DNA of 64,000 bases from the NCBI RefSeq assembly GCF_006716645.1, contig NZ_VFPL01000001.1, positions 2,046,001-2,110,000 on the forward strand. The letters run 5' to 3'. The position numbers and the translations under genes are program-made. The notes beneath the pieces are model-generated. The model saw only the letters and a program-made list of their open reading frames with translations. It made no database searches and was not told the origin of the DNA. Position 1 is the stretch's first letter, and each line of letters begins with the position of its first letter. Shown here piece after piece: positions 4,180 through 35,325 of the stretch. The DNA comes from Arcticibacter tournemirensis (lineage in GTDB: Bacteria; Bacteroidota; Bacteroidia; Sphingobacteriales; Sphingobacteriaceae).

Positions 4180-4204
4180 TAACTATCAAAATTTATTTTT
4201 GAGG

Positions 4205-4232
4205 GGCCTCTATTTGCCGTAGGGGCCTTTTT
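4205..4232 (+). terminator. Stem-loop with T-run between regulator and downstream genes
   Basis: GGCCTCTA (4205-4212) and TAGGGGCC (4220-4227) can pair with one wobble, and TTTTT follows on the plus strand. The flanking genes run on the minus strand, where the hairpin lacks a T-run, so it may mainly block antisense transcription entering the regulator gene or act as an mRNA hairpin. Confidence 0.4.
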
Positions 4233-4234
4233 AT

Positions 4235-4822
4235 TTATGCGCTTTTTAGGTCAACCATATTCAGTTTATAAGCAAGAATGCCAATAGACGTTTTCCGCTC
4301 AATGCCTGCCTTACGTGAAATTTTATCCTTATGATTCCGCAGGGTTTGTTGGCTTATTGAAAGCTTACTGCATATTTCCTTATCCAGCAATCCGAGGCCT
4401 ATTTCCTTCAAAACCTGCATTTCACGTCGGGTAAGACGTCCGTAAGGCAAACGGATTCGGTCTGACAGGAGTTCCTTTAATGGCGTCAGAAGTTCTTTGC
4501 CTGAAATCACATACTCCGGAGCTTGAATAAATCCATTTTCGTCGATATCTGCGGCGTTATCGAATGCTCCGTAGCGTAGAGCTATATAATAGCGGATTTG
4601 TTCCATTTCGTCAATTATGCCCCATTGAACCAGTGCATTGACAGCGTCCTTATTTCTACGCATGTCTTTTTTAACGATAGACAAGATCCACGATGGAAAC
4701 TCATTAAAACTATAAACCATACCCATGCATAAGCATTTAACCTCTTCGTCGTCAATAAAAAACTCGACGGCTTTCGTTACCAGGGCAGCAGGAATAGAAT
4801 GGTTTATGTGAATGAGCTTCAT
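4235..4822 (-). CDS. LuxR-family (GerE HTH) transcriptional regulator
   Basis: The 195-residue protein has a clear C-terminal LuxR/GerE helix-turn-helix (about residues 130-190) with the signature LTRREMQVLKEIGLGLLDKEI, followed by LSISQQTLRNHKDKISRKAG. The N-terminal 120 residues match no sensor domain I know and carry no REC phosphoacceptor motif. It is the second gene leftward from the divergent switch region and overlaps the stop-start of the 75-residue gene upstream (ATGA). It probably controls the downstream phage/plasmid-like operon. A LuxR regulator in this early position is less usual than a Xre- or cII-type protein. Confidence 0.8.
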   Translation of the reverse strand: MKLIHINHSIPAALVTKAVEFFIDDEEVKCLCMGMVYSFNEFPSWILSIVKKDMRRNKDAVNALVQWGIIDEMEQIRYYIALRYGAFDNAADIDENGFIQAPEYVISGKELLTPLKELLSDRIRLPYGRLTRREMQVLKEIGLGLLDKEICSKLSISQQTLRNHKDKISRKAGIERKTSIGILAYKLNMVDLKSA

Positions 4823-5046
4823 GCCAGAACCTCCTTCGCTTTATTCTTCAGCGCTTCATCGGCTTCCTTTTCTTCCTGTATTATTTCGAGTGCTACAAAG
4901 AAGATATCGCGTTTATAGCGCTTTGGATCGTTAAATGCTTTTTTTACTGATTCTGCTGAAACATTGCCTAATCGCTCTGAAATTTTTTGATAACCGCCTT
5001 CTGGCAGTTGCTTTTTTAGGGCGGTGAGTTCTCTTTTACTTAGCAT
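4819..5046 (-). CDS. Small Cro/Xre-like DNA-binding protein
   Basis: The 75-residue protein reads ELTALKKQLPEGGYQKISERLG, then VSAESVKKAFNDPKRYK and a charged C-terminal helix. This is the layout of the small helix-turn-helix proteins that open leftward operons in Bacteroidota prophages. It is the first gene of the minus-strand operon, directly facing the divergent repressor-like gene at 5219. It likely acts as the Cro-like arm of the switch. The HTH assignment is by pattern, with moderate certainty. Confidence 0.62.
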   Translation of the reverse strand: MLSKRELTALKKQLPEGGYQKISERLGNVSAESVKKAFNDPKRYKRDIFFVALEIIQEEKEADEALKNKAKEVLA

Positions 5047-5218
5047 GACACATTAATGTGATTTGATTAGTCCCGAATTTGTCCTTTTTTTGTCCCGTCG
5101 TTTTCTTAAACAATTATAGATGTTATTATCTATTAATACAAATAAACGACTATGTTTATCTTAATATTCGACGTAATGCTCTCATTATCAATAGAAAAAA
5201 ATTCCGGTTTTTTGTGAA
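5047..5218. promoter_or_regulatory. Divergent control region with operator-like repeats
   Basis: This 172-bp gap separates the leftward operon (start 5046) from the rightward HTH gene (start 5219). It contains a perfect dyad ATAGAT-GTTATT-ATCTAT at 5116-5133, direct copies of TTTGTCC in the run GAATTTGTCCTTTTTTTGTCC, and GTCCCG twice. Both promoters must lie here. The dyad is the best candidate for a repressor operator. Confidence 0.55.
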
Positions 5219-5602
5219 ATGGATTATGTAATTGGGGACGCAATTAGAAGAAAGATTGAAGAAAAGGGGATGACCTTTGTTGCTTTTGCTGATAAGTTCG
5301 GTATTACCGACCGGAATTTGCAGTACTTTTTCAAGCGTAACGACATCTCGCTTCAGCAAATAACACGCGCATCGGAAATACTTGACTACGATTTTGTTAA
5401 GGAATATTTAGCTGCGCTAAAGGAAGACGGAAAAGGCAGGTGGATAGCAGAAGAACCAGCTCCGGAATACGCAAGCAAACAGAAGGGGATCACCACATCA
5501 TTTACCATAGTCGGCAATCAGGATGATTATTACAAAAATTTTCCAGATCTCCTGAGAACTCTCATTTCTGAAGCATCTAAACTAGGATTTTCAATAGCAT
5601 AA
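5219..5602 (+). CDS. HTH repressor-like protein of phage switch
   Basis: The 127-residue protein has residues 1-60 with a helix-turn-helix of Xre/CI type (GDAIRRKIEEKGMTFVAFADKFGI, recognition segment TDRNLQYFFKRNDISLQQITRASE, written here in pieces). The C-terminal half has a different, partly beta-like composition (TTSFTIVGNQDDYYKNFPDLL) and no LexA-type Ser-Lys protease dyad that I can see. It is transcribed divergently from the Cro-like gene, so it is the likely maintenance repressor. The gene at 5605 follows with a 2-base gap and is probably co-expressed. Confidence 0.7.
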   Translation: MDYVIGDAIRRKIEEKGMTFVAFADKFGITDRNLQYFFKRNDISLQQITRASEILDYDFVKEYLAALKEDGKGRWIAEEPAPEYASKQKGITTSFTIVGNQDDYYKNFPDLLRTLISEASKLGFSIA

Positions 5603-5604
5603 GT

Positions 5605-5817
5605 ATGGCAAAGAGAAAAGTAACAGGTTTCGAATCATATTGGCTGGTAGAGTTCATGAAAATGAAAGCAACGGTGGAAGTTATTAAGGAACATCAGGCG
5701 ATAATTTTATCGAGAATAGATGGATCAAGCAAGGAAGCTACTTTAATTGAGATGGACAGAAGAATAACTGAGTTGCTGGATATTGATATAGATTCAGCGC
5801 CAGATGAACTCGACTAA
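5605..5817 (+). CDS. Small hypothetical partner of the repressor
   Basis: The 70-residue protein is charged and helical with a heptad-like C-terminus (ATLIEMDRRITELLDIDID). It begins 2 bases after the repressor-like gene and is followed by a good intrinsic terminator at 5916-5965, so the two form a bicistronic unit. The family is not recognised. A modulator or antirepressor role is conceivable from position only. Confidence 0.55.
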   Translation: MAKRKVTGFESYWLVEFMKMKATVEVIKEHQAIILSRIDGSSKEATLIEMDRRITELLDIDIDSAPDELD

Positions 5818-5915
5818 CACATGAACAAATGTTTAAGCCAGCGTTTCAACATTTTTATATAAAGTATTATAAATCAGATAAATAAAGACTATGGGATACT
5901 CCGGCCCTGGGTACG

Positions 5916-5965
5916 AAAACCGGGAAGATAGTTTAAAAACTTCTTCCCGGTTTTTCTTTTTAAGA
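5916..5965 (+). terminator. Intrinsic terminator of the rightward switch unit
   Basis: AAAACCGGGAAGA (5916-5928) and TCTTCCCGGTTTT (5942-5954) form a 13-bp stem with a 13-nt A/T-rich loop, followed by TCTTTTT. It ends the repressor-like operon and also separates it from the convergent HigBA pair. Confidence 0.85.
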
Positions 5966-6029
5966 CTTTTTGATCTAATCCTGATTAAAGTGGATCAACC
6001 CATTAAAGCTCAAGTCGAGCTTGAGCTGT

Positions 6030-6383
6030 CTAGATCTGCATAAATAACTCTGCCGGTAGATTAAAGTACTCCCGCAGTTTTCTCGCCGTAGTTAAAGTGA
6101 GCTCCCTTCGGCCTGACAGAACGGACGATACATGCCCTTTACTTCCTATGATCGGTTCCAGATCTTTGGCCTTCATACCTCGTTCCTCCATCTTCAGCTT
6201 TATAGCGTCAATAGGATTGATAGTTGGTATGTGTATATGCCGATCTTCATAATCTTTAATCAGAACTAAGAGTAAAGCTAATTCATCAGATTCAGGTGAA
6301 CCTTCTTCAGCATGAAAGATTTCCATTGTCCGTCTAACTGCTATTTGGTATTGTTCTTCTGTATTTAATACTTTCCAGTTCAT
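6030..6383 (-). CDS. higA: HigA-type antitoxin (Xre HTH)
   Basis: This is a 117-residue protein. Residues 55-110 are an Xre helix-turn-helix (LKMEERGMKAKDLEPIIG, then VSSVLSGRRELTLTTARKLREYF and a terminal NLPAELFMQI), and the N-terminal half provides a neutralising/dimerisation region. It lies 4 bases downstream of the toxin gene, the toxin-first order typical of hig loci. The antitoxin binds the toxin and represses the shared promoter, probably at the perfect palindrome at 6730-6746. The pair may stabilise the neighbouring mobile region. Identification as HigA rests on HTH type, size and neighbour. Confidence 0.85.
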   Translation of the reverse strand: MNWKVLNTEEQYQIAVRRTMEIFHAEEGSPESDELALLLVLIKDYEDRHIHIPTINPIDAIKLKMEERGMKAKDLEPIIGSKGHVSSVLSGRRELTLTTARKLREYFNLPAELFMQI

Positions 6384-6387
6384 CTCT

Positions 6388-6720
6388 CTATGCTTTGTAT
6401 GTCAATATTTTCGTATCAAAAGACACAGTTTCTACATTTATTCGATCATATTCCCTGTGCGTACCGAACCAAATCACATAGGCGGCGTGCTGATTGAAAT
6501 TAACCGATACTATTAGCCGATTATCGTTTCCTTTAATATTGAATATAACCCGGTTGCTGCCAACTATACTCGCATTGCCGTACACCGCTTTCAATTCGTT
6601 GAAGCTATCGAAATTCTGCTTCAGGAACTCATTATACCAAACTAATAATGCATTCTTTGCTGATGGATACTTGTCTGCATAATATAATATCGCCCGTCGT
6701 ACGATGATATTCATATACAA
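6388..6720 (-). CDS. higB: HigB-type mRNA-interferase toxin
   Basis: The 110-residue protein has the HigB_toxin layout: an N-terminal helix pair (RAILYYADKYPSAKNALLVWYNEF), a central beta segment with NRVIFNIKGNDNRLIVSVNFN, and a C-terminal AYVIWFGTHREYDRI strand. Conserved basic/aromatic residues (R near 62, H near 93, Y near 97) fit ribosome-dependent mRNA cleavage known for the RelE/HigB superfamily. M3 (6714) is an alternative start. It is the first gene of a two-gene operon with higA, and its start is 10 bases from the palindromic operator. Confidence 0.85.
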   Translation of the reverse strand: MYMNIIVRRAILYYADKYPSAKNALLVWYNEFLKQNFDSFNELKAVYGNASIVGSNRVIFNIKGNDNRLIVSVNFNQHAAYVIWFGTHREYDRINVETVSFDTKILTYKA

Positions 6721-6805: not shown

Positions 6806-7357
6806 ATGGAAACAAAAAGAGGAGAAAAAAAGTCAACAAGGGAGAATAAGAATGTTCCCTTTACCAAGCGAGAAATTGAGACAATAGTCCAAAAGATCGA
6901 ATCAGGAGTTCCGCGTCGGGAGATACTGCGGGAATATGGGATGCACAAATCAACGTTGACCAATTGGATGAGCCGGTATGGATCAGAGGCGTATCATGCA
7001 GGGCAAAACCGGAGGTATAGTCCCTCGGAGAAACGGTCAGTGCTGCGGGCCGTGGAGTCAGGGATGTCGGTTCGGGAAGCATGTATAGCTTTTGGAATAA
7101 GGAGCAAAACAGTAGTAGCCGGCTGGCTAAGACAACAGAAAGCAGAAAATGCCGAACTTAGGCGTCAAATAGCACCCGTGAAATCAGAAGAGAAGGAACC
7201 AAAAGGAGATTCGTCAGGCCAGGTCAAGAGGTTGGCGGAACAACTGGCAGAGGCACAGTTAAAGATCCGGGCCCTGGAGACGATGATCGATATAGCCGAA
7301 GAACAGCTTAAAATCGATATCCGAAAAAAGTCTGGAGCCAAACAGTCACCAAAATGA
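6806..7357 (+). CDS. IS3-family transposase OrfA (HTH/coiled coil)
   Basis: The 183-residue protein has two helix-turn-helix units, residues about 20-65 (FTKREIETIVQKI, then GVPRREILREYGMHKSTLTNW) and 70-115 (SPSEKRSVLRAVESGMSVREA). A C-terminal coiled coil follows (KRLAEQLAEAQLKIRALETMI). This is the DNA-binding OrfA of IS3-type elements and is longer than the typical 90-110 residues because of the double HTH. It overlaps OrfB by 4 bases (ATGA), so OrfB may be made by translational coupling rather than, or in addition to, the programmed -1 frameshift used by many IS3 members. Confidence 0.88.
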   Translation: METKRGEKKSTRENKNVPFTKREIETIVQKIESGVPRREILREYGMHKSTLTNWMSRYGSEAYHAGQNRRYSPSEKRSVLRAVESGMSVREACIAFGIRSKTVVAGWLRQQKAENAELRRQIAPVKSEEKEPKGDSSGQVKRLAEQLAEAQLKIRALETMIDIAEEQLKIDIRKKSGAKQSPK

Positions 7358-8253
7358 AACAGGAGGAGCCCCGAATGGGAATAAAGACGCTGTGCAGATT
7401 GTTTGGCAAGAGCCGCCATGCCTGGTATGACCACCAGTGGCGCTATGAGGATATTGGATTAAAAGAGGAGATCACCCTTCAGCATGTCCATCAGATCCGT
7501 CAGGGCCTTCCGCGGACAGGTACCCTGAAATTACATTACATGCTCGCTCCCATGCTGGCAGAGCATGGCATCCGGATCGGGCGGGACTATTTATTTGATC
7601 TGATGCGGGAGCACGGACTGGATATCCGTCGCAGAAAGAGGCGGGTAGTGACGACCGATTCGCGCCATTGGATGCATAAATATGCCAATCTGGTGAGAGA
7701 ATTGAGGGTTAACCGTCCCGAGCAGGTATGGGTGAGTGACATTACTTATATCCGCATGAACAGCGGATGGGGTTATCTCAGCCTGGTGACGGATGCTTAC
7801 TCCCGCAAGATCATGGGTTACTGCTTTCATAAAGATCTCAGCGCGGAAGGATGTGTAGAAGCACTGCGAATGGCCCTGGACCAGCGGATCTATCAGGATG
7901 AACTGATCCATCATTCCGACCGGGGATCCCAGTATTGCAGCAAAGAGTATGTAGAGGTTTTACTGGGCAGCAGGATTGCCATCAGTATGACCGAAAATGG
8001 CGATCCCTATGAAAATGCACTGGCTGAACGGGTGAACGGGATTCTCAAAGAAGAATTCAATCTGCATCACTCAGGACTCGGCTTTGAGGACACCAAAACA
8101 AAGATCGCCGAAAGCATCCGGGCATATAATGAGGTAAGACCTCATGCCAGTTGTGATTACCTAACCCCTGAGCAGGCGCATTTACGGGCAGGGGTCTTGA
8201 TGAAACGCTGGAAAAATAAAAAATCAAAAAAGGAGGGACTTGTCCTTGTATAG
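7354..8253 (+). CDS. IS3-family transposase OrfB (DDE integrase core)
   Basis: The 299-residue protein has an HTH_21-like N-terminus and an rve integrase core. The catalytic triad is visible as D in VWVSDITYI, D in HHSDRGSQY and E in ENALAERVNGILKEEF, with the K/R seven residues on that is typical of IS3. The C-terminus, with RPHASCDYLTPEQAH, is the usual ending. The frame is intact, so the element could be active. It catalyses excision as a circle and integration through the terminal repeats at 6766 and 8362. Confidence 0.95.
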   Translation: MKQEEPRMGIKTLCRLFGKSRHAWYDHQWRYEDIGLKEEITLQHVHQIRQGLPRTGTLKLHYMLAPMLAEHGIRIGRDYLFDLMREHGLDIRRRKRRVVTTDSRHWMHKYANLVRELRVNRPEQVWVSDITYIRMNSGWGYLSLVTDAYSRKIMGYCFHKDLSAEGCVEALRMALDQRIYQDELIHHSDRGSQYCSKEYVEVLLGSRIAISMTENGDPYENALAERVNGILKEEFNLHHSGLGFEDTKTKIAESIRAYNEVRPHASCDYLTPEQAHLRAGVLMKRWKNKKSKKEGLVLV

Positions 8254-8256
8254 TTC

Positions 8257-8362
8257 AAACAGGATTAACAAATTGCAGTGTATAATCGAAACAGGAATAA
8301 CAAATCGAAGTGTATAATTAATTCAGGATTTATTCATTAACCTGTATAGCTATTTCAGGACA
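8257..8362. repeat. 32-bp direct repeats inside the IS3 right end
   Basis: The unit AAACAGGATTAACAAATTGC (8257 onward, 31-32 bp, ending AGTGTATAATC) recurs at 8289 with a few changes (CAGGAATAACAAATCGAAGTG). It appears again in degenerate form from about 8321 and as a stub at about 8353, keeping a 32-bp period up to the terminus. These are probably transposase-binding sites. Confidence 0.7.
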
Positions 8363-8404
8363 AGACATTGCTCGTTTCTCCTGCGTTCCTTGCTCGCTTT
8401 TCGT

Positions 8405-8481
8405 TCGTCAGCTGTTCGTCAGCTCCTTGTCGATTGCTCGTCAACTGCTCGTCAGTTCTTCGTCAGCTGTTCGTCAGCGTG
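8405..8481. repeat. 11-bp tandem repeats (TCGTCAGCTGT)
   Basis: Seven units of mostly 11 bp: TCGTCAGCTGT, a 12-bp variant, a 10-bp variant, TCGTCAACTGC, TCGTCAGTTCT, TCGTCAGCTGT and TCGTCAGCGTG. A more degenerate continuation goes back to about 8368. The period is about one helical turn, so the TCGTCA boxes lie on one DNA face. No gene covers it convincingly. Confidence 0.75.
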
Positions 8482-8586
8482 ACGGTAAATCGACGATAAA
8501 GCGAGATCGGGGAGGCGTATATGGAGACAGCCGGGGCCGGTTTAGGCTCTTTTCAGAAACAGGAATGAGATGCCTTGTTTATGGTG

Positions 8587-8626
8587 TGTCAAACAATGTC
8601 AAACTGTGTCAAATAAGGGCAAAAGT
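8587..8626. repeat. 10-bp tandem repeats (TGTCAAAnnn)
   Basis: TGTCAAACAA, TGTCAAACTG and TGTCAAATAA are exact consecutive 10-mers, with a fourth weaker unit GGGCAAAAGT. Like the 11-bp array 100 bp upstream, they are helically phased. They may be protein-binding arms of an attachment site or an iteron-like array. Confidence 0.65.
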
Positions 8627-8826
8627 GTCGGTCCGTTAGCGAATTATAAAAATCCGCTTTATGTTTGTTCGCACAGGCACGACACGTCGTACCAGAGGTT
8701 TTTGGAGTTTAATTTTTAATATTAATTATCAGGGGAACTTCGAGTTGCGGCATTGCATTTCGATCTAAAGTAAATAGGGTACAATTGTTAACGTTTATTA
8801 TGTAACATAAAAAACTATATTGGTGT

Positions 8827-9726
8827 ATGAATGGAACAGAAACGATAGAGGATTTTTATAAGACCAAGCTTAACTGGGTGCCTGATACGCTCCGTAAGGA
8901 AATCGGACATTTTAATGTGTTTAAACTGGATGATTTTGTTGGCTGCCATTCAAAACCAATTCCTTACAGCAGAAAGGATTATTTCAAAATTAGCCTGATT
9001 ATCGGACGGAATATTATCTATTATGCAGACAAGACCATTGAAATTAAGAAGCAGGCTTTATTATTTGCAAATCCTCAGATTCCGTACAGCTGGGAGGAAA
9101 TAGACGACCAGCAAACAGGTTTCTTCTGTGTGTTTACTCCCAGCTTTTTTCATCACTTTGGTAATCTTAGAGAATATGATGTTTTTAAGCCGACTGGTAC
9201 ACCCGTTTTCGAGCTCACAGATGAACAGGCGGAGAAAATAAGAGAGATATATCTGAGAATGTTTGACGAAATCAACTCCGATTATCAGCATAAATATGAC
9301 GCACTGAGAAATTTGGTTTTCGAGATTCTGCATCATACGATGAAGATGCATCCGGCTAAAAAGACTCAAAAGGAACAAATAAACGCTGCACACCGAATAT
9401 CGATTTTATTCTTAGAGTTGTTGGAGCGACAGTTTCCCATTGAAGATACCCGGCAACGTGTCAGTTTTCGCTCGGCATCTGACTTCGCTAATCAGCTTTC
9501 TATCCATGCCAACCACTTGAGTCGTGCCGTAAAAGCCACTACACAAAAAACAACATCCGAAATTATAGCCGAACGCATTTTGCAGGAAGCGAAGGTGCTT
9601 CTGAAGCACACGGAGTGGAATATATCTGAAATAGCTTTCGCCCTGGGGTTTACTGAGGTTACCCATTTTAATAACTTTTTTAAAAAACACCTTGATCTGA
9701 GCCCCACTCAGTTCAGAAGTGCTTGA
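8827..9726 (+). CDS. AraC-family transcriptional regulator
   Basis: The 299-residue protein has a C-terminal AraC double HTH (about residues 220-298): first HTH in SDFANQLSIHANHLSRAVKATT, second in WNISEIAFALGFTEVTHFNNFF followed by KKHLDLSPTQFR (quoted in parts). The N-terminal 200 residues resemble the cupin-like AraC ligand domain of Bacteroidota regulators that sit next to short-chain dehydrogenases. It lies 78 bp upstream of such an SDR gene in the same direction, so it probably activates that gene in response to a small ligand. The ligand is not identifiable. Confidence 0.92.
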   Translation: MNGTETIEDFYKTKLNWVPDTLRKEIGHFNVFKLDDFVGCHSKPIPYSRKDYFKISLIIGRNIIYYADKTIEIKKQALLFANPQIPYSWEEIDDQQTGFFCVFTPSFFHHFGNLREYDVFKPTGTPVFELTDEQAEKIREIYLRMFDEINSDYQHKYDALRNLVFEILHHTMKMHPAKKTQKEQINAAHRISILFLELLERQFPIEDTRQRVSFRSASDFANQLSIHANHLSRAVKATTQKTTSEIIAERILQEAKVLLKHTEWNISEIAFALGFTEVTHFNNFFKKHLDLSPTQFRSA

Positions 9727-27088: not shown

Positions 27089-28060
27089 TATCCGTTTTTA
27101 ATCATAATCCTGTAATGTTAGCAATAATAAGCCTTTCAAAGAGTCTATCTCCAAAATATCTTCGATTTAGCTTGTAGATGAATTCGTTGAGATAGAGTTG
27201 AAGATACTTTCTTTTTATTTTGTGGTAATTGCCCAACAAATTTCTTTTGGCGTTGCTAATGGCAATATGAACCCATTTTAAAGTTTCTTCGGTAGTTTCT
27301 TTTGAACTTTTTTCCATAATATGAAGCTCTACAAAATCTGAAATATCCATATAAGAAGTGCTTTTATCTGTAAAAACAATACTCTGATTATCTACAGATT
27401 CTTTAATGGCTTCATTGATTTCTTCTCCACTGTGTCCATCTAAAACCTTCGCTTTAAAGAAGCGAACATGTTTTTCTTTTTTTCCAGTATCAATATCTTC
27501 TAACGGTGTTGATTCTGCTATCATCGCTACATTTTGTTTCCCAACTGAACCTTTTCCACGAATTCCTTTTTTCTGCTCTATTTCGCTAGATTCTACTGTA
27601 AAATAGGCTTCGTCAAATTCTATCATCCCTTCCAAAGTGTATTGTGCATCTCGGTTTCCCATGGCTTTTCTTATCTTATGAACCATCGCCCAAACTGGTT
27701 CATACCTCTTTAATCCCAATTGTTTTTGGATTTCTTTGGCTGAAAATCCTTTCTTGGTAACACTCATCAAAAACATGGTTTTGTACCAAATTAGAAAAGA
27801 CAAATTCGAATTTTCCATGATGGTTCCGCTTTTCAAAGAAGTTCGACTTCTGCATTTTTTGCATTCATAACTTAATCTGCTCTTTATCCAAAAATGTTCT
27901 GTGCTTCCACATTTGCACGTGAGTCCTATTTTATCTCTCTCAGATTTAAAATGATTTATACAATCATCTTCTGTCCCAAAATGTGCTGAAAAACTGAATA
28001 AATTCATATCTAATTGTTTGATTACTACAAATATACAAAAATTATGATAAATTACGGATA
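27089..28060 (-). mobile_element. IS1595-family insertion sequence
   Basis: One transposase gene lies between related ends: TATCCGTTTTTAATCATAAT at 27089 and, on the complement from 28060, TATCCGTAATTTATCATAAT. No 8-bp target duplication is apparent beside these ends (TTTTTGAT versus TTCATATG), suggesting a deletion or rearrangement after insertion. Confidence 0.8.
27102..28007 (-). CDS. IS1595-family (ISXO2-like) DDE transposase
   Basis: This is a 301-residue protein. The N-terminal zinc ribbon is CKCGST (and CKKC, with a further C), the usual IS1595 feature. The ISXO2-like DDE core shows EFDEAYFTVE, IVFTDKSTSYM (Asp) and a later Asn/His/Glu-type position where ISXO2 members have H/N (HIAISNAKRNLLGNYHKI). 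The protein is full length, so it may be functional. It is common in Flavobacteriia/Sphingobacteriia mobile elements. The C-terminus lies only 13 bases from the terminal repeat. Confidence 0.93.
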   Translation of the reverse strand: MNLFSFSAHFGTEDDCINHFKSERDKIGLTCKCGSTEHFWIKSRLSYECKKCRSRTSLKSGTIMENSNLSFLIWYKTMFLMSVTKKGFSAKEIQKQLGLKRYEPVWAMVHKIRKAMGNRDAQYTLEGMIEFDEAYFTVESSEIEQKKGIRGKGSVGKQNVAMIAESTPLEDIDTGKKEKHVRFFKAKVLDGHSGEEINEAIKESVDNQSIVFTDKSTSYMDISDFVELHIMEKSSKETTEETLKWVHIAISNAKRNLLGNYHKIKRKYLQLYLNEFIYKLNRRYFGDRLFERLIIANITGL

Positions 28061-28135: not shown

Positions 28136-29119
28136 TTATAAACTTAGTAATTTTTGTTGATTAAACAATTGTCTTCTTTTTCTCAGTGAATCGGTTTTGA
28201 TTTGCTGTCTTTTTTTCAGGATCTGCTCGGATCTTCCAAAGTAAACATCAGCCGGGGTAAGGTTGTTTAGCGATTCATGGTAGCGTTTGTTATTGTAGTT
28301 GTTTACGAAGTTTTCCAATGCTGATATCAGTTCTTCCGGGTGGTAAAAATGATTGAGCTTTACAACGTTTTTCATCGTTCTGTGATACCTTTCAATCTTT
28401 CCCTGTGTCTGCGGATGTAAGGGTTTTCCGTGAACCTGTTTCATCTTCAGGTCTTCCTTCAGATAGGTTTTCAGCTCATTGGATACATAGCAGGGGCCAT
28501 TGTCTGAGAGCAGTTTGGGTTTTGTTTTGGTCATCAATTCTGCTTTGTCAATCGCCGTATTAACGGTTCTTTTTACATCTTCAGCCTTCATCGAGTCACA
28601 GAGTTCCCAATGAATGATATAGCGGCTGTAATCGTCCAGAACAGTACTCAGATAGTACCATCCCCAACCGATAATCTTGAAGTAAGTAAAATCGGTTTGC
28701 CACATTTGGTGGACAAACTGGGTTTTGTCCTTAAATTCATTTGCTGCGGAAAGAAGAAAATGATTGGGAGCAGGAATCAGATCTCTTTGCTTAAGGATTC
28801 TGTAAACACTGGACTCCGATATGAAAATACCCTGTTCATCGGTTATTTTATGGGCCAGTTCCCGGGAAGAGAGTTCTGTGTGCTCCAGTGCTATTTCCAC
28901 CACCAGATCTTTCTGCTGTTCAGGAATACTGTTCCATTGCCTGCGGCCGGTTCTCCTGTTGGGTCTTAGCCCGTCGTAACCGTTTTCAAGATAATTCTGA
29001 TACCACCCGTAGAAGGTACTCCGCGGAATTCCGTAGGATTCCAAGGTTCGTTTTACGCCTGTTTCACTTTGGGTAACCTCTAAAATAATCTCGTATTTCT
29101 CGGCTGCTGTTAATCTCAT
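28136..29119 (-). CDS. IS3/IS481-type transposase OrfB (DDE core)
   Basis: The 327-residue protein has an HTH half (about 1-110: LESYGIPRSTFYGWYQNYLE, then VYRILKQRDLI) and an rve core with catalytic D in WQTDFTYFKI, D in LLSDNGPCYVSN and E in GKIERYHRTMKN. The C-terminus, PADVYFGRSEQ, is typical. It is intact and translated separately from OrfA, with 20 bases between them. It provides cutting and joining for the element ends at 28079 and 29570. Confidence 0.93.
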   Translation of the reverse strand: MRLTAAEKYEIILEVTQSETGVKRTLESYGIPRSTFYGWYQNYLENGYDGLRPNRRTGRRQWNSIPEQQKDLVVEIALEHTELSSRELAHKITDEQGIFISESSVYRILKQRDLIPAPNHFLLSAANEFKDKTQFVHQMWQTDFTYFKIIGWGWYYLSTVLDDYSRYIIHWELCDSMKAEDVKRTVNTAIDKAELMTKTKPKLLSDNGPCYVSNELKTYLKEDLKMKQVHGKPLHPQTQGKIERYHRTMKNVVKLNHFYHPEELISALENFVNNYNNKRYHESLNNLTPADVYFGRSEQILKKRQQIKTDSLRKRRQLFNQQKLLSL

Positions 29120-29139: not shown

Positions 29140-29493
29140 TTAATCCAGCATGTCCAAGCTTTTTTTTACGATGTCATAGCGTAAAACCAGGTCCGCAACC
29201 ATTTCCTTTAAGCGGGCGTTTTCCTTTCTCAGTTCGGCCACTTCATCTCTGGTGGCTTCCCTTGTCACATCTCCGTTGAGACGTTTCTTCCCGGCTTCCA
29301 TAAACTCTTTGTTCCAGGAGTAAAACTGAGACTGAGAGATACTGTGTCTTCTGCAAAGCTCTGCCACGGATGTCTCGGCACGGAGGCCTTCCATCACGAT
29401 TAAAATCTTTTGTTCCGCAGTGAAAGTTCTGCGACTGTTTTTACGAATGTCTTTTACAAATTTTTCGATGTTCTTTTTCTTGGGTGTTTCCAT
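29140..29493 (-). CDS. IS3-type transposase OrfA (HTH)
   Basis: The 117-residue protein has an HTH_Tnp_1 domain: FTAEQKILIVMEGLRAETSV, then AELCRRHSISQSQFYSWNKEF. A coiled-coil tail follows (VAELRKENARLKEMVADLVLR). It binds the element ends and partners with OrfB. It is first in the IS operon on the minus strand, its promoter lying between 29494 and the right terminal repeat. Confidence 0.92.
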   Translation of the reverse strand: METPKKKNIEKFVKDIRKNSRRTFTAEQKILIVMEGLRAETSVAELCRRHSISQSQFYSWNKEFMEAGKKRLNGDVTREATRDEVAELRKENARLKEMVADLVLRYDIVKKSLDMLD

Positions 29494-29570
29494 AATTAAA
29501 TCTAATTCTTTTTTGAAAACACTCCTTAAGTTTTTAGTAAATTGTGTCCACTTTTTGCTGACGATTTACA

Positions 29571-29601
29571 GCTTGGCAGTGATAAAAATGCGCTCCCCGT
29601 T
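29571..29601 (-). pseudogene. Second fragment of the interrupted DUF932 gene
   Basis: On the minus strand this short piece encodes NGERIFITAKL, which is the natural continuation of the DUF932 sequence ending at 33112 (ETAGALGNG). It lies outside the RIT element on its left side, and the IS3 end immediately cuts it off. The AACGG at its start (CCGTT, 29597-29601, plus strand) is the duplicated target base set. Confidence 0.8.
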
Positions 29602-29602
29602 A

Positions 29603-29622
29603 TTATGTAAAGCTTTACATAA
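29603..29622. repeat. Perfect 20-bp palindrome at RIT left end
   Basis: TTATGTAAAGCTTTACATAA is its own reverse complement. Its half-site (TTATGTAAAG) recurs inside both RIT terminal repeats, so it looks like two fused recombinase half-sites. It has no counterpart at the right end. Confidence 0.8.
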
Positions 29623-29628
29623 CAAAGG

Positions 29629-29655
29629 TTATGGAAAGTAAAAGATTATGTAAAG
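29629..29655. repeat. RIT terminal inverted repeat, left
   Basis: A 27-bp sequence starting TTATGGAAAGTAAAAGATTA, identical to the complement of 33085-33111. The match extends by GG/CC to 29 bp if the adjoining bases are counted. Confidence 0.88.
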
Positions 29656-29718
29656 TAGAGTGCCTTTTGCCATTTTCAGGTGTTTAATCAGGCTATTCTA
29701 CTTTACATTATTTTAGCC

Positions 29719-30732
29719 TCAAAAGTTCTTTAACCAGTCTAATAGGCTTTCATTGTTCACCCATACAGGGGCTTCTTTTTTAACAACGTTGATGTAGGCG
29801 CTTTCTATTGCTTCCCGTTTTTGTTTGGAATCAACTCTCGCATAGACTTCGGTTGTGATAACCGATTGATGCCCAAGAATATCACGTATATAAACAAGGT
29901 TAACACCAGCTTGTAAAAGGTGCATTGCTTTTGAATGGCGAAGCGAATGGCAACTGATTTTTTCGGGGATTAGCAACTTATCGCTGTTTCGCGCCATTGT
30001 TGCATATTTATGCAGGATATGGGTAACACCCGCCCGTGTCAGTTTTTCCCTTCGGGTATTGTAGAACAATGGGTATGTCCCTGCATGGGCTTCCAATAAT
30101 CGGTTTTTCTCCATGTAGTTCTTTAAGTGAACCACCTCTGCATCCATGAGCGGAACAATACGCGCTTTATTACCTTTTCCTATGAGTTTGATGGTATAAG
30201 GCTTGTTTAACCTGATATTTTCCGGGGTTAGGTCGATGATCTCCTGCACCCGAGCACCCGTATCGTACATCAATGCAAGCAAAGCCAGATCCCGTATTCC
30301 TTGCTTTGTGGTCAGGTCAGGCTGGCTTAGCAAAAGCCGGATGCCATCAACGCTTAGATAATTGATGGTGCCGCGCTGTGCTTTTTTTACTTTTATTGAA
30401 AGCACGCTCCGGCATTCTTCCAATTGCTCCGGCCATTCGTATTGCACAAACTTAAAAAAGGTATGCAATGCCGCCAGCCTAACGTTGCGGGTAGAGATAC
30501 TGCATTTGCGTACCTGCTCCAGGTGGTTAAGGAACTCGACAATACAAGTTTTTGTCAAATCGCCGAACACCAGCTTTTGGGGCTTTATGCCTTTATGTTC
30601 TTCCATAAAAGAGATGAGCAGAATGAATGTCATCCTGTATGATGCTATAGTGTTATTGCTCATTCCCCTTTCTGCAGGAAGATATTTGGTCAGGAAGTCC
30701 GCAAGGCTCTTAGGGAAGTTAACTGTTTTCAT
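29719..30732 (-). CDS. RIT tyrosine recombinase C
   Basis: The start is taken at 30732 (MKTVNFPKSLADFL), giving 337 residues and a 14-base overlap with the preceding recombinase. Upstream in-frame codons to 30936 lie inside the neighbour's coding sequence and lack family character. Tyrosine-recombinase boxes are DTGARVQEIIDL (box I Arg), CHSLRHSKAMHLLQAG (box II His-x-x-Arg) and LGHQSVITTEVYARV (Tyr). Third and distal member of the trio; its C-terminus is 64 bases inside the left inner repeat region. RIT recombinases act together; which one cuts is not known. Confidence 0.92.
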   Translation of the reverse strand: MKTVNFPKSLADFLTKYLPAERGMSNNTIASYRMTFILLISFMEEHKGIKPQKLVFGDLTKTCIVEFLNHLEQVRKCSISTRNVRLAALHTFFKFVQYEWPEQLEECRSVLSIKVKKAQRGTINYLSVDGIRLLLSQPDLTTKQGIRDLALLALMYDTGARVQEIIDLTPENIRLNKPYTIKLIGKGNKARIVPLMDAEVVHLKNYMEKNRLLEAHAGTYPLFYNTRREKLTRAGVTHILHKYATMARNSDKLLIPEKISCHSLRHSKAMHLLQAGVNLVYIRDILGHQSVITTEVYARVDSKQKREAIESAYINVVKKEAPVWVNNESLLDWLKNF

Positions 30733-31714
30733 GGCTTGCTTCATCATGGGTTTCCGGGAATAAGAAAGGACAGACATTATTAACCTTAGTGATAATAGAT
30801 GGGTACATATCGGCGGTGAGCCGTACATACCCGTCCGTACTGGCGATGCATTTATGGCCGAGATAAGTTGAAAGCACCGGCAGTGAATAATACAGGTCAG
30901 TACCGGCTTCCGCCATTTTCGCCAGCGAGTGCACACTAAATGTATGCCTCAAGTCATGCACATGCGGGCCTTGACGCCTGCCCCGATGGGGAATACCCGC
31001 TTTATATAGCACTTTTCGGAACCAGTTATATGTCCGGCTATTGTCGCAACAGTCACCATTGGGCTGTACAAAAAGCAGGTCTGTTTTTCTTACCATAGGA
31101 AAGCGCTCCCTGCAATTCATATATTCCTTGATCACCTGGGTTACGGAATCAGAGATTGGCACCATCCTGTCCGTCCCATTCTTCGTGTCCCGGAGTATGA
31201 TATATTGTTCTTCGAGATAAACATCTTTGCAGGATAAGGATAGTGCTTCGCCTACACGCAGTCCTGTACCATATAATACCCTGAACAATGCAGGAAGCAC
31301 CAAGACCATAGAGTTATAACAAGTACTATAGGCGCTTAACTGGTCGGTCGCCTCAAATATGGCAGCCATTTCCTCTTTAGTGTAGATATAAGGTACATGG
31401 GTTGATTGCTTGATTTTCGGCAGTACAGGTAAGGAAGATGCGTAATTTAGCTTATTCAGATAGGTGCCGAACTGCCGCATGGCCTGAATGCGGTTATACC
31501 ACGTTTTGTCCGATTCATTTGACCGCCTGATGCACCACTCATTACAGAGTTCTTTGCTGATGCCGATAGTGGTTTCTTCCCGGTCATAAGCCAATTGGTC
31601 GAACTGCATAAAAGCATATTCGACGGTCATGTATTTATAACCCAGATGCCTTTTTAACGCAACAAACTCTTCAATAAAGGGCTTGTATATGCTGTAGTAA
31701 TTGATCGTACTCAT
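30719..31714 (-). CDS. RIT tyrosine recombinase B
   Basis: The 331-residue tyrosine recombinase has an N-terminal SAM-like core-binding half, and in the C-terminal half GTGLRVGEALSLSCKDV (box I Arg), HVHDLRHTFSVHSL (box II) and LGHKCIASTDGYVRL (Tyr). It overlaps recombinase A by 4 bases (ATGA) and recombinase C by 14, a coupled arrangement that is characteristic of RIT elements and implies a fixed ratio of the three proteins. All catalytic positions are present. Confidence 0.93.
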   Translation of the reverse strand: MSTINYYSIYKPFIEEFVALKRHLGYKYMTVEYAFMQFDQLAYDREETTIGISKELCNEWCIRRSNESDKTWYNRIQAMRQFGTYLNKLNYASSLPVLPKIKQSTHVPYIYTKEEMAAIFEATDQLSAYSTCYNSMVLVLPALFRVLYGTGLRVGEALSLSCKDVYLEEQYIILRDTKNGTDRMVPISDSVTQVIKEYMNCRERFPMVRKTDLLFVQPNGDCCDNSRTYNWFRKVLYKAGIPHRGRRQGPHVHDLRHTFSVHSLAKMAEAGTDLYYSLPVLSTYLGHKCIASTDGYVRLTADMYPSIITKVNNVCPFLFPETHDEASHENS

Positions 31715-32976
31715 GATACAAACACTCCTTTCTGCTGGTAAAAAGCTGGCGCAACCATTGGTACATCAAGGGCGCACTGTTTAAGTTGCTGTTTATCAAC
31801 ACGCAGGTAAAGCATGGTCGAAGCTGTATGACTATGCCCTAACGCTTCTGATATTACAGGAAGCGGTGTTTTATTTTCAAGCAAATGAGTAGCAAAGCTA
31901 TGCCGTAATGCGTGCGCTCCCTTGTGCCTGTTCTTAAGAATGATGCCTGAACGCCGTATATGTAAAGCTATTCTGTTTGTAACGTCTTCGGGCGTTATTG
32001 ATTTGAATGGATATATATGCTGTAAAAAACAATATGGCGCATTGGAGACGGGACGTGCATATTTTAAGTAATCAACAATGGCATTTCCTATCTCGGGCAG
32101 AAGCGGAAGGGTAATTTCTTTTTTGGTTTTGAACTGCATTATCTCAATGATGCCCTTATCCCAATTAATGTTCTCGAACTTTAACTGTGCTATATCGGAT
32201 ACCCTCAAACCAAGTTTTGCAGCCAGCAATACCAACGCATAATCCCTTTTACCCGATGGGTTGCCCCGGTCGATCTTTTCTATGATGCAGGTAATATCTT
32301 CTGTAGAAAAAAACGAGGGGAGCTTTGGCTGCGATTTGTAATTTGTGCGCTGTATCACATCTGAATAATCTTTATTGAGTATCTTTTCTGTGTACAGATA
32401 GGCAAAAAAGCTTTTGATAACGCCCAATTTAGAATGATTGGTGGGCAGAGTTGCCGGATTAAGGCTTTTCATAAACGATACCAGGTACACCTCATTGATA
32501 TCGGCAACTCTCTTTATTTCTTTACCGCTCAAAAAGGTAAGTAAACCATGCAGCGTGTTCAGGTAGTGGTTTTGGGTTGATTTTGACAGGGTAAAAGTTG
32601 TTGCTTTATAAGTGATAAAGTCTTGCATGGCAACACCTACTTCGCCTGTCAACACCTTCGGCGGATTTCTTCTTAATGGTGCAGTCCCAAAAAAGACTTG
32701 GCCTGTAGACTGAAATACATGCAGTGCATCGACCTTATTAACCAAATGCCGCTGCATCCGGTCAAGCGAGGCATAATCATAGTCGCCCAGCTTTGACTTA
32801 ATGAACTGGTCGCCAACAGATTTATCATAGTTTTCGATCCCTGCCGCAGCCATAAATAGCTTTAAGGGTTTCCAGATCTGCCAATATCCCCGGAGGGTGT
32901 ATCGACCTCGTTGCAGGGTGCGAAGGTGTTTTTCAAACTCATTTACGAGTTCGTCGATGGTTTGATTTTCTTTCAT
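31711..32976 (-). CDS. RIT tyrosine recombinase A
   Basis: The 421-residue protein is the first gene of the trio and the longest. Core-binding part is residues about 110-220, catalytic part 230-410, with AAKLGLRVSDIAQL (box I Arg), GAHALRHSFATHLLENK (box II) and LGHSHTASTMLYLRV (Tyr). The promoter should lie in the 40-130 bp between its start and the inner/outer right-end repeats, so the recombinases may regulate themselves by binding there. All residues needed for catalysis are visible. Confidence 0.93.
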   Translation of the reverse strand: MKENQTIDELVNEFEKHLRTLQRGRYTLRGYWQIWKPLKLFMAAAGIENYDKSVGDQFIKSKLGDYDYASLDRMQRHLVNKVDALHVFQSTGQVFFGTAPLRRNPPKVLTGEVGVAMQDFITYKATTFTLSKSTQNHYLNTLHGLLTFLSGKEIKRVADINEVYLVSFMKSLNPATLPTNHSKLGVIKSFFAYLYTEKILNKDYSDVIQRTNYKSQPKLPSFFSTEDITCIIEKIDRGNPSGKRDYALVLLAAKLGLRVSDIAQLKFENINWDKGIIEIMQFKTKKEITLPLLPEIGNAIVDYLKYARPVSNAPYCFLQHIYPFKSITPEDVTNRIALHIRRSGIILKNRHKGAHALRHSFATHLLENKTPLPVISEALGHSHTASTMLYLRVDKQQLKQCALDVPMVAPAFYQQKGVFVS

Positions 32977-33084
32977 AATTACATTATTTATGGTTAGGGC
33001 ACTATTGCCGCCAACAAAATAATGTAAAGTATAAATGAGGTTAAGCCGCTGAATTTGAGTAATCCAACGGCTTTAAGAGGATAG

Positions 33085-33111
33085 CTTTACATAATCTTTT
33101 ACTTTCCATAA
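33085..33111. repeat. RIT terminal inverted repeat, right
   Basis: A 27-bp exact inverted copy of 29629-29655, abutting the 5' part of the DUF932 gene. The inner 16-bp inverted copy TACTTTACATTATTTT lies at 29699-29714, with its complement at 33016-33031. Confidence 0.88.
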
Positions 33112-33509
33112 CCGTTGCCCAATGCTCCTGCGGTTTCGTACAATATACCATCGCCTCCGCCTACAATAGCATCAAAGAAATTGAACGCCTCACGGTTTTG
33201 TACGATATGGTAGTCTTTGCCTACTACGCCCAACGGTGTATTGGTGTCGGTGCGAAGTGTGGCGAAACTGTTAGGTACTAAGATGTCATTGGCTTCAATC
33301 AGTTCTCCACTGTAGCCTATGCTCATTGTTCTGCCCTGTGTAAACAGTGGGGATTTGATAACCTCGTAATCTAAACCTGCATGTACTATTGCTTCTTTGC
33401 TTGTTGGGTACTGCTCCACGATTTGCCCCAAACCGTGCCACGCTTTTTGTTGAACGCTGAAGAATGAATGACGCCCTGTTTGCTCGTTGAAATTGATGTT
33501 GTGTGCCAT
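33112..33509 (-). pseudogene. DUF932 (phage/plasmid-like) protein, interrupted by RIT
   Basis: The reading frame starts at 33509 and gives DUF932-family sequence (MAHNINFNEQTGRHSFFSV, AWHGLGQIV, VVGKDYHIVQNREAFNFFDAI, ETAGALGNG) for about 133 residues. It then runs into the RIT terminal repeat, where the frame soon stops. The missing next residues (ERIFITAKL) are found on the other side of the element at 29571-29601. DUF932 genes are standard accessory genes of Bacteroidota conjugative elements. The gene is dead in this strain unless the element excises precisely, and the IS3 insertion makes even that insufficient. Confidence 0.88.
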
Positions 33510-34074: not shown

Positions 34075-35325
34075 TTAGATTGCCATCATAAACGCTTCTT
34101 CCATTGCCTTGAATTTAGGGGTAACTAAATCCATATCCTTACTGATTTTTTGGCTTGTGATTTTAGCGTAAATCTGTGTGGTGGAAATATTTTTATGCCC
34201 CATCATTTTGCTAAGACTTTCAAGCGGTACGCCCTCGGTCAAAAACATTGTTCCGAAAGTATGCCTTGCCGTGTGAAAAGTTACTTTATGCTCCGTAATG
34301 ATTTCTGCCTTTTCAACCAGTTTGCCTATGTGAGTATTGCAGGTTGCATTGGTCGGAACCGGAAAGATAAATTCATTCCTTGTCGTACCCTGATATTTCT
34401 CAATGATACGTTTAGGAATTTCCATTAACCGAACATTTGAAGCAATATCTGATTTCTTTCTCCTACTGATAATCCACTGATGACCGTCAAAGAATGATTG
34501 AATGTTGTTCCTTGTCAGTTTCTTAATATCCGCATAAGCAAGTCCTGTAAAGCAACTGAAAATAAACAGGTCTTTTACAAGTTCATACCGTTGGTGCGAT
34601 GGTACGCACATCATCAGCTTTTCAACATCTTCTTTAAGGATATAGCCCCGGTCGGTTTCTTCCATATTGATTTCGTAATTCTGAAACGGATTATCACGTA
34701 TCAAGCCTTTTTTAATAGCCAGTTCCACCAGACTTAATACAGGCATAGTGTAAACCCAAACCGTATTATGCGAAGATTGTAAGTCGTACCGGAGGTAAAA
34801 ATCAAACTCCCGGATAAAATCGGCAGTCAATTCCCGAAAAGCCATATCATCACGATGATAGCGTTCTTTTATAAACGTGGTAAGATGATTGTAAACCGTG
34901 ATATACTTGTTGTAAGTGCTTTGCGCACGTTCTTCCTTTTCGACCAATTTTTTAAAATCCTCATTTTGGTCGTTGAAGACTTTAAGTATTGCATCATCCA
35001 TTACGCCAACACCCAAAAACGATAGCTTTACTTTTTGGGCGGTCGCAAAGCCCTCGTGCTTCAACATATCTTCATAAATCTTGTCGATACGCCCACGTAT
35101 ATTATCCAGTTTTTTATTGATACTTAATGCCTGCGCACTTTTGCCCTGAACTCTTCCGTGTTTTAAATCCCAATTATTGGGGTCAATTTCTAACTTTGTT
35201 CCGAAAGTTTTAGGGGTTCCGTCAATGGTAATACGTGCCATAATCGGAGCATTACCGTTCTTTTTCAATTCGTTCTTTTTTAGGTAGAAAAGCAGTTTGA
35301 ACGTCGATTTTTTTGTTTGTTCCAT
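34075..35325 (-). CDS. IntDOT-like tyrosine integrase
   Basis: This is a 416-residue Bacteroidota integrase. The N-terminal arm-binding domain (about 1-100, KSTFKLLFYLKKNELKKNG, DGTPKTFGTKLEIDP) is followed by a SAM-like core-binding domain (110-210) and a catalytic domain. Box I reads FTGLAYADIKKL, with Ala where most relatives have Arg; loss of that Arg is known for IntDOT of CTnDOT. Box II is HTARHTFGTMFL and box III is MMGHKNISTTQIYAKI (Tyr). It lies at the right edge of the mobile block, transcribed inward, followed by a terminator. It is the likely enzyme that brought the block in. Confidence 0.93.
   Translation of the reverse strand: MEQTKKSTFKLLFYLKKNELKKNGNAPIMARITIDGTPKTFGTKLEIDPNNWDLKHGRVQGKSAQALSINKKLDNIRGRIDKIYEDMLKHEGFATAQKVKLSFLGVGVMDDAILKVFNDQNEDFKKLVEKEERAQSTYNKYITVYNHLTTFIKERYHRDDMAFRELTADFIREFDFYLRYDLQSSHNTVWVYTMPVLSLVELAIKKGLIRDNPFQNYEINMEETDRGYILKEDVEKLMMCVPSHQRYELVKDLFIFSCFTGLAYADIKKLTRNNIQSFFDGHQWIISRRKKSDIASNVRLMEIPKRIIEKYQGTTRNEFIFPVPTNATCNTHIGKLVEKAEIITEHKVTFHTARHTFGTMFLTEGVPLESLSKMMGHKNISTTQIYAKITSQKISKDMDLVTPKFKAMEEAFMMAI

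Follow-up and report, generated by a model that had tools for sequence, protein, structure and literature searches.

A 64,000-nucleotide stretch of the Arcticibacter tournemirensis genome (GCF_006716645.1, NZ_VFPL01000001.1, positions 2,046,001-2,110,000; hereafter the window, in whose positions all coordinates are given unless a contig is named) contains a complete recombinase-in-trio (RIT) element that interrupts a DUF932 gene, a gene of plasmid type, and carries a perfect palindrome outside only one of its terminal repeats. Comparison with other RITs indicates that this is an ordinary RIT and that its asymmetric end is the normal attachment architecture of these elements. We consider it probable that such elements are inserted by tyrosine recombinases at a defined site within a conserved gene by way of a circle whose junction holds two crossover cores.

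The element occupies positions 29603-33111 on the minus strand (3,509 bp), with the three recombinase genes as the only genes between its terminal repeats. Translation of the open reading frames (ORFs) together with profile searches identified three adjacent, overlapping tyrosine-recombinase genes in the order ritA, ritB, ritC, and the R, H-x-x-R, H and Y residues could be read off all three translations, bearing out the original assignment of the element as a RIT. RitC additionally matched a XerD-like profile (1.2e-58, under the NCBIfam cut-off). Below, P denotes the palindrome side and T the side of the terminal repeat that directly abuts the target.

29597-29602, minus strand: P-side outer 6-bp spacer, TAACGG (read from palindrome to flank)
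29603-29622, no strand: perfect 20-bp palindrome TTATGTAAAGCTTTACATAA, two P half-sites tail to tail (TTATGTAAAG/CTTTACATAA)
29623-29628, minus strand: inner 6-bp spacer of the putatively unused core, CCTTTG (CAAAGG when read from P to T)
29629-29655, minus strand: ritC-side terminal inverted repeat, made of T half-site TTATGGAAAG, 7 bp and a second half-site TTATGTAAAG
29696-29714, minus strand: ritC-side inner inverted repeat
29719-30744, minus strand: RitC tyrosine recombinase, 341 aa from the given ATG, an earlier start being possible (Phage_integrase, 1.6e-31)
30719-31714, minus strand: RitB tyrosine recombinase, 331 aa (Phage_integrase, 1.5e-25)
31711-32976, minus strand: RitA tyrosine recombinase, 421 aa (Phage_integrase, 2.5e-31)
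33016-33034, minus strand: ritA-side inner inverted repeat
33085-33111, minus strand: ritA-side terminal inverted repeat, whose T half-site (33102-33111) abuts the target spacer directly, without a palindrome
33112-33117, minus strand: T-side outer 6-bp spacer, CAACGG

The two outer inverted repeats are identical over 27 bp, and their alignment extends, at 97% over 33 bp, into the nearly complementary 6-bp spacers. As had been noticed originally, the 20-bp palindrome is present on the left (ritC) side only. With the two sides of the target designated L and R, the minus strand therefore reads L-CAACGG-TTATGGAAAG ... CTTTCCATAA-CCTTTG-TTATGTAAAG/CTTTACATAA-TAACGG-R. If joined, the outer ends would give CTTTACATAA-6 bp-TTATGGAAAG, and the inner motif is the exact reverse complement of this arrangement with another spacer. 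The original prediction took CCGTT, which does occur at both junctions (29597-29601 and 33112-33116), to be a 5-bp target duplication, but the natural unit is 6 bp and its two outer copies differ at the last base (CCGTTA and CCGTTG on the plus strand). What looks like a target duplication is better understood as the 6-bp spacer of a tyrosine-recombinase crossover site.

The one-sided palindrome recurred when other RITs were compared, comprising ten from the same family, eight from plasmids or other genomes, multi-copy genomes and viral contigs. We examined 62 loci (65 minus three duplicate contigs) and scored the 49 with script-detectable ends, leaving out 13 that were short contigs, had no terminal repeat or a weak one, or lacked an end. 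The typical layout among the 49 was a palindrome of 19-20 bp lying some 6 bp beyond one of the terminal repeats. One mismatched pair or none was found at the better end of 35 of the 49 elements, at the other end of a single element (L027, which has the palindrome at both ends) and in 6 of 963 control windows; for perfect palindromes the corresponding counts were 22, 1 and 0, and comparison with the control windows thus excludes chance. Where the ends were unequal and the better one had no more than two mismatched pairs (41 elements), the palindrome lay at the ritA end in 23 and at the ritC end in 18. Most RITs in the survey, whether from Bacteroidota, Cupriavidus, Agrobacterium, Rhodococcus or viral contigs, share the one-sided palindrome with its 6-bp spacer, the palindromes differing in sequence, and on this evidence the palindrome is a regular component of RIT elements. 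Several short contigs (L012, L016, L024, L025 and L037) break off at the palindrome or close to it and are uninformative as to a circle.

Related copies also exist in the A. tournemirensis genome itself, a sign of mobility for this RIT. A second copy, 84% identical (G000:C1:2775010-2778526), interrupts a DUF932 gene at that same codon, with its palindrome at the ritC end, and a third, more distant RIT with its palindrome at the ritA end is found a few kb from the second (L047, G000:C1:2779000-2789000, element near 2783209). Another genome, G224, holds a further RIT copy at the same DUF932 codon, with a one-sided palindrome and the inner spacer CAATGG; in L012/L024 the inner spacer, at the contig end, is TAAGGG.

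The side on which the palindrome lies follows the target. In all seven target families (7/7) seen with both element orientations, the palindrome abuts the same side of the target; family calls were made by a flank match for at least one member per family, other members being placed by shared motif. The loci in the two orientations were as follows.

istB: L034, L149, L150 and L152 versus L151 and L194 (L149, L150 and L194 in the same istB sequence)
IS66: L033 versus L032
M23 peptidase: L157 versus L158
amidoligase: L052 and L061 versus L050 and L077
C5 methylase: L080 versus L081
phage portal: L063 and L070 versus L066, L069, L072 and L073
group II intron reverse transcriptase: L040 and L044 versus L078

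Genome G692 provides an example, with five istB copies: the palindrome is at the ritA end in L149, L150 and L152 and at the ritC end in L151 and L194, which are in the opposite orientation, so that it faces the same side of istB in all five. In the last family listed, the reverse transcriptase genes (in Agrobacterium, Rhodococcus and a viral contig) are interrupted at a QGG/QGS..LSP motif.

The mechanism that we favor would proceed as follows. Joining of the ends would create a 10-6-10 core, composed of the palindrome's outer half-site, a 6-bp spacer and the opposite end's terminal half-site. The intermediate would be a circle with the junction ritC-side repeat, spacer, palindrome, spacer, ritA-side repeat, which amounts to two head-to-head cores sharing the palindrome. 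Crossover between one of these cores and a target of the form L-spacer-R would place the terminal repeat beside L and the palindrome beside R, with the other core left intact within the end. Because the junction is nearly symmetric, either orientation would be possible, whether through use of the other core or through in-place inversion with the same chemistry, and the palindrome would stay on the R side. The spacers would be pieces of target genes carried from one insertion to the next. RITs are widespread, and a two-core junction is a concrete substrate to build; it would jointly explain the orientation rule, the asymmetry of the ends and the apparent target duplication, and the spacers would offer a sequence-only route to tracing where an element has been.

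The spacers themselves bear on this proposal. Spacers could be tabulated for 55 of 67 elements tried, and 46 sets remained for counting after duplicates and L060, L062, L083 and L086 were dropped. At positions 1-6, P and T spacers agree in 23, 40, 40, 33, 46 and 45 of the 46, and T and inner spacers, taken for comparison, in 26, 36, 35, 28, 42 and 41; given this similarity, conservation of the target codons accounts for much of the agreement between P and T, and the greater strictness seen at positions 5 and 6 is no more than suggestive. The two outer spacers are identical in some RITs and different in others, the window copy among the latter. A case in point is the trio L151, L152 and L194, whose 3,488-bp bodies have 0 mismatches while their spacers are nonetheless unlike: L151 has CACAGG on the P side and AAAAGG as its inner spacer, where L152 and L194 have TAAAGG. 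Unlike spacers on identical bodies point to spacer capture and not to mutation. In genome G733, two copies with 0 mismatches in 5,995 bp have traded spacers, the inner spacer of each being identical to a palindrome-side spacer of the other. This may be the exchange predicted from a common circle, and swapping in place would fit it too.

Two RITs carry passenger genes between ritC and the ritC-side end: L026 in G224 (a TetR regulator and an epimerase, ~7182-8965) and L157 in G733 (an ArsR regulator and a MerT/HMA protein, ~4200-6444). In G733 the whole 6.0-kb unit, passengers included, is duplicated with no mismatch.

Empty sites allow the native spacer to be placed. For L053, three of three empty PcfK sites match at 40/40 bases on both flanks; scans for L066, L058, L054 and L056 gave 0 matches, and that for L080/L081 gave seven sites, which were too divergent to be informative. 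The target spacer is probably on the T side in the window copy; in L053 (3/3 empty sites) it is on the T side and also fills the inner slot. A fixed rule that the target spacer always lies on the T side, drawn from the window copy, L053, G733 and L052, was nevertheless abandoned, since L077 breaks it and L052 is a doubtful case. Among the tabulated elements, some have an inner spacer identical to P but different from T, and others the reverse, and in view of this mixed usage we treat the three 6-bp slots as exchangeable. Strand bias is a possibility; if real, an exchange limited to one strand on the side of the terminal repeat would account for the strictest homology being found on that side.

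The crossover also appears to be phased with respect to codons. We considered 17 target families whose frame was confirmed by a Pfam or PHROG match on the flank of one member: DUF932, RadC, IstA (rve), IS66, IstB (two sites), RVT_1, C5 methylase (two sites), phage integrase, DUF4314, portal, amidoligase, PcfK, tape measure, M23 and a DarB-like protein. Further members of a family were placed by the motif they share with it. The phase in M23 was read by hand, and L087 was counted despite a weak palindrome (3 mismatched pairs). Left out were nine unconfirmed loci, with the best ORF in phase in L035, L039, L046 and L047 and out of phase in L027, L031, L074, L082 and L088, as well as L060, L062/L064, L083, L085 and L086, whose ends are unreliable. 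Positions 1 and 4 of the spacer coincide with wobble bases, in a sense or antisense reading, in 16 of the 17 families, the exception being L028 (DarB-like); the probability of this by chance is ~3e-7 in a hand calculation that assumes 1/3 per family and ignores relatedness.

These observations suggest a fuller version of the proposal, to which we give a little less than an even chance. The element would have two interchangeable dif-like cores, of which one is spent at insertion, in either orientation, and the other is kept with its spacer as a record of earlier targets; the crossover would be phased so that spacer positions 2 and 3, like positions 5 and 6 beside the terminal half-site, occupy the first and second codon positions and the mismatch-tolerant positions 1 and 4 the wobble bases, allowing one element to follow a conserved protein motif through synonymous variants across hosts. 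If this is true, codon phasing would be a clear example of a recombinase site that has become adapted to the conservation of coding sequence.

Two pieces of the interrupted gene remain in the window.

33112-33509, minus strand: N-terminal part of the interrupted DUF932 gene (DUF932 1.2e-9, TIGR03299 2.6e-21), 93-97% identical to the uninterrupted homologues L165-L170
29569-29601, minus strand: remaining C-terminal piece (..NGERIFITAKL), a 97% match to the uninterrupted L168, truncated at its far end by an IS3-family element

The DUF932 reading continues across the junctions as ..ETAGALGNG/ERIFITAKL.., and close uninterrupted homologues show the empty site, which upholds the insertion as first described. 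Compared with homologue L168, nothing of the C-terminal half beyond 29569-29601 was found in the window. At 28 of 30 DUF932 loci the insertion site is uninterrupted and has no palindrome, the other two loci being L164, which is the window, and L179, another RIT insertion, found in G104; this disposes of the idea that the palindrome was part of the original DUF932 gene. Among the six closest homologues (93-97%), L167 has TAACGG at the site and the other five have CAACGG, and with CAACGG in five of six the T-side spacer of the window copy is probably, though not certainly, the native one. For the second copy, none of the DUF932 loci compared was close enough for an empty-site comparison.

Other mobile-element genes surround this locus. 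IS3/IS481-type transposase ORFs (28136-29119 and 29140-29493) directly adjoin the DUF932 remnant, and an IS1595-family transposase lies at 27102-28007. A separate tyrosine recombinase with an Arm-DNA-bind_5 domain is encoded at 34075-35325, a type typical of integrases of Bacteroidota integrative elements.

Several points weigh against the two-core circle. The circle, its excised junction and transposition, like mobility and the roles of the enzymes, are inferred from assembled sequence. The symmetry of orientation fits use of either core and inversion in place alike. Empty sites for L077, with flanks up to 99% identical, carry GGTACA, yet both outer spacers of L077 are GGTCCA and GGTACA sits in its inner slot; L052, whose nearest empty site (92.5%) carries GGTACA, may follow the same pattern. 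No palindrome was recognised in L045 (Sinorhizobium) or in L156, which has a broken ritB, and a scripted search found no terminal repeat in L041, L042 and L043. The 13 of 62 loci that could not be scored count here as well, and the 49 scored elements include related copies and are thus not independent. Finally, at the two ends of L027 (G234:C28:241000-249000) the palindrome, together with both spacers, forms an exact direct repeat, perhaps through insertion at a solo palindrome. The same element has an in-frame stop in ritB. At L045, on the Sinorhizobium plasmid psfSMH12b, two inverted sequences that resemble an IS21-type transposase gene flank the element, without a palindrome.

The most serious rival to the two-core circle, though one we think unlikely, holds that integration uses one core only and that the element is later inverted by recombination of the inner core with the junction of target and terminal repeat, while the palindrome keeps its place beside the target. 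Inversion predicts the same orientation rule, and the probable native spacer in the inner slot of L077 is what a swap in place would give; L053, with the native spacer in both T and inner slots, also speaks for it. Excision followed by reinsertion at the same site, however, would give an identical spacer pattern, and the oppositely oriented L149/L150 and L194 lie at separate loci in the same istB sequence (1-2 mismatches), an arrangement that either model allows. It is improbable that the palindrome is a regulatory, terminator-like element or a resolution or hairpin (protelomerase-like) site with no part in crossover: such sites typically contain long, nearly perfect inverted repeats, but the half-sites of the palindrome match the terminal half-sites, the 6-bp spacing is kept, and its position tracks the orientation of the target and not that of the operon. 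The original explanation, a partial end duplication or second recombination event peculiar to the left end of the window copy, is highly improbable, for while the extra 26 bp are at one end only and the palindrome halves resemble terminal half-sites, the survey contradicts a one-off event, with the same architecture in the second copy, in G224 and in most RITs surveyed, with different palindromes and at either end. A DDE-type transposon making a staggered-cut duplication was rejected, as the enzymes are tyrosine recombinases and the outer spacers differ in the window copy and many others.

The two-core junction can be set beside several known recombination systems. A Xer/dif core has a recombinase half-site on each side of a 6-bp spacer, the two in inverted orientation; by profile, RitC resembles XerD, and a RIT would differ in fusing two such cores head to head through the palindrome, with one broken at a time. 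Tn916-type coupling sequences are short donor sequences carried at the junction to the next site, whereas the spacers of RITs correspond to codon variants within one target gene family.

For published accounts we drew on sections of PMC3414803, PMC2864759, PMC10214605 and PMC8138268. Overlapping tyrosine-recombinase genes ritA-ritB-ritC, a length of ~3.5 kb and inverted repeats at the ends place the window element with the RITs described there. PMC3414803 reports a "28-9 bp inverted repeat and overlapping palindromic sequence flanking ritA and ritC", PMC8138268 gives RitA two core-binding domains and RitC an extra C-terminal helix, and PMC2864759 describes Cupriavidus RITs that target radC and IS66 tnpA, gene kinds also hit here (L029; L032/L033). 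The sections drawn on from PMC3414803 and PMC2864759 contain no one-sided palindrome rule, two-core junction, spacer exchange or codon phase, and in the review table of PMC10214605 the target specificity, empty site and movement of RITs, along with the way in which their three recombinases cooperate, are entered as untested; the novelty of the end architecture is provisional, and we claim no priority. Two further parallels come from the same review. Strand-biased circularizing integrative elements (SEs) use several tyrosine recombinases and place the 6 bp of the donor to one side and those of attB to the other, a pattern that the window copy and L053 fit and L077 does not simply; the sections of that review drawn on here describe no two-core palindromic junction, and the SE gene set (four genes: intA, tfp, intB and srap) and reported gammaproteobacterial range set the window RIT apart. 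Tn554 has three transposition proteins, two recombinases and TnpC, and a 6-bp donor footprint, which in Tn554 as in SEs has a fixed polarity (PMC10214605). The likeness of the 6-bp footprint of RITs to those of SEs and Tn554 is real, the fixed polarity being the one described for SEs and Tn554.

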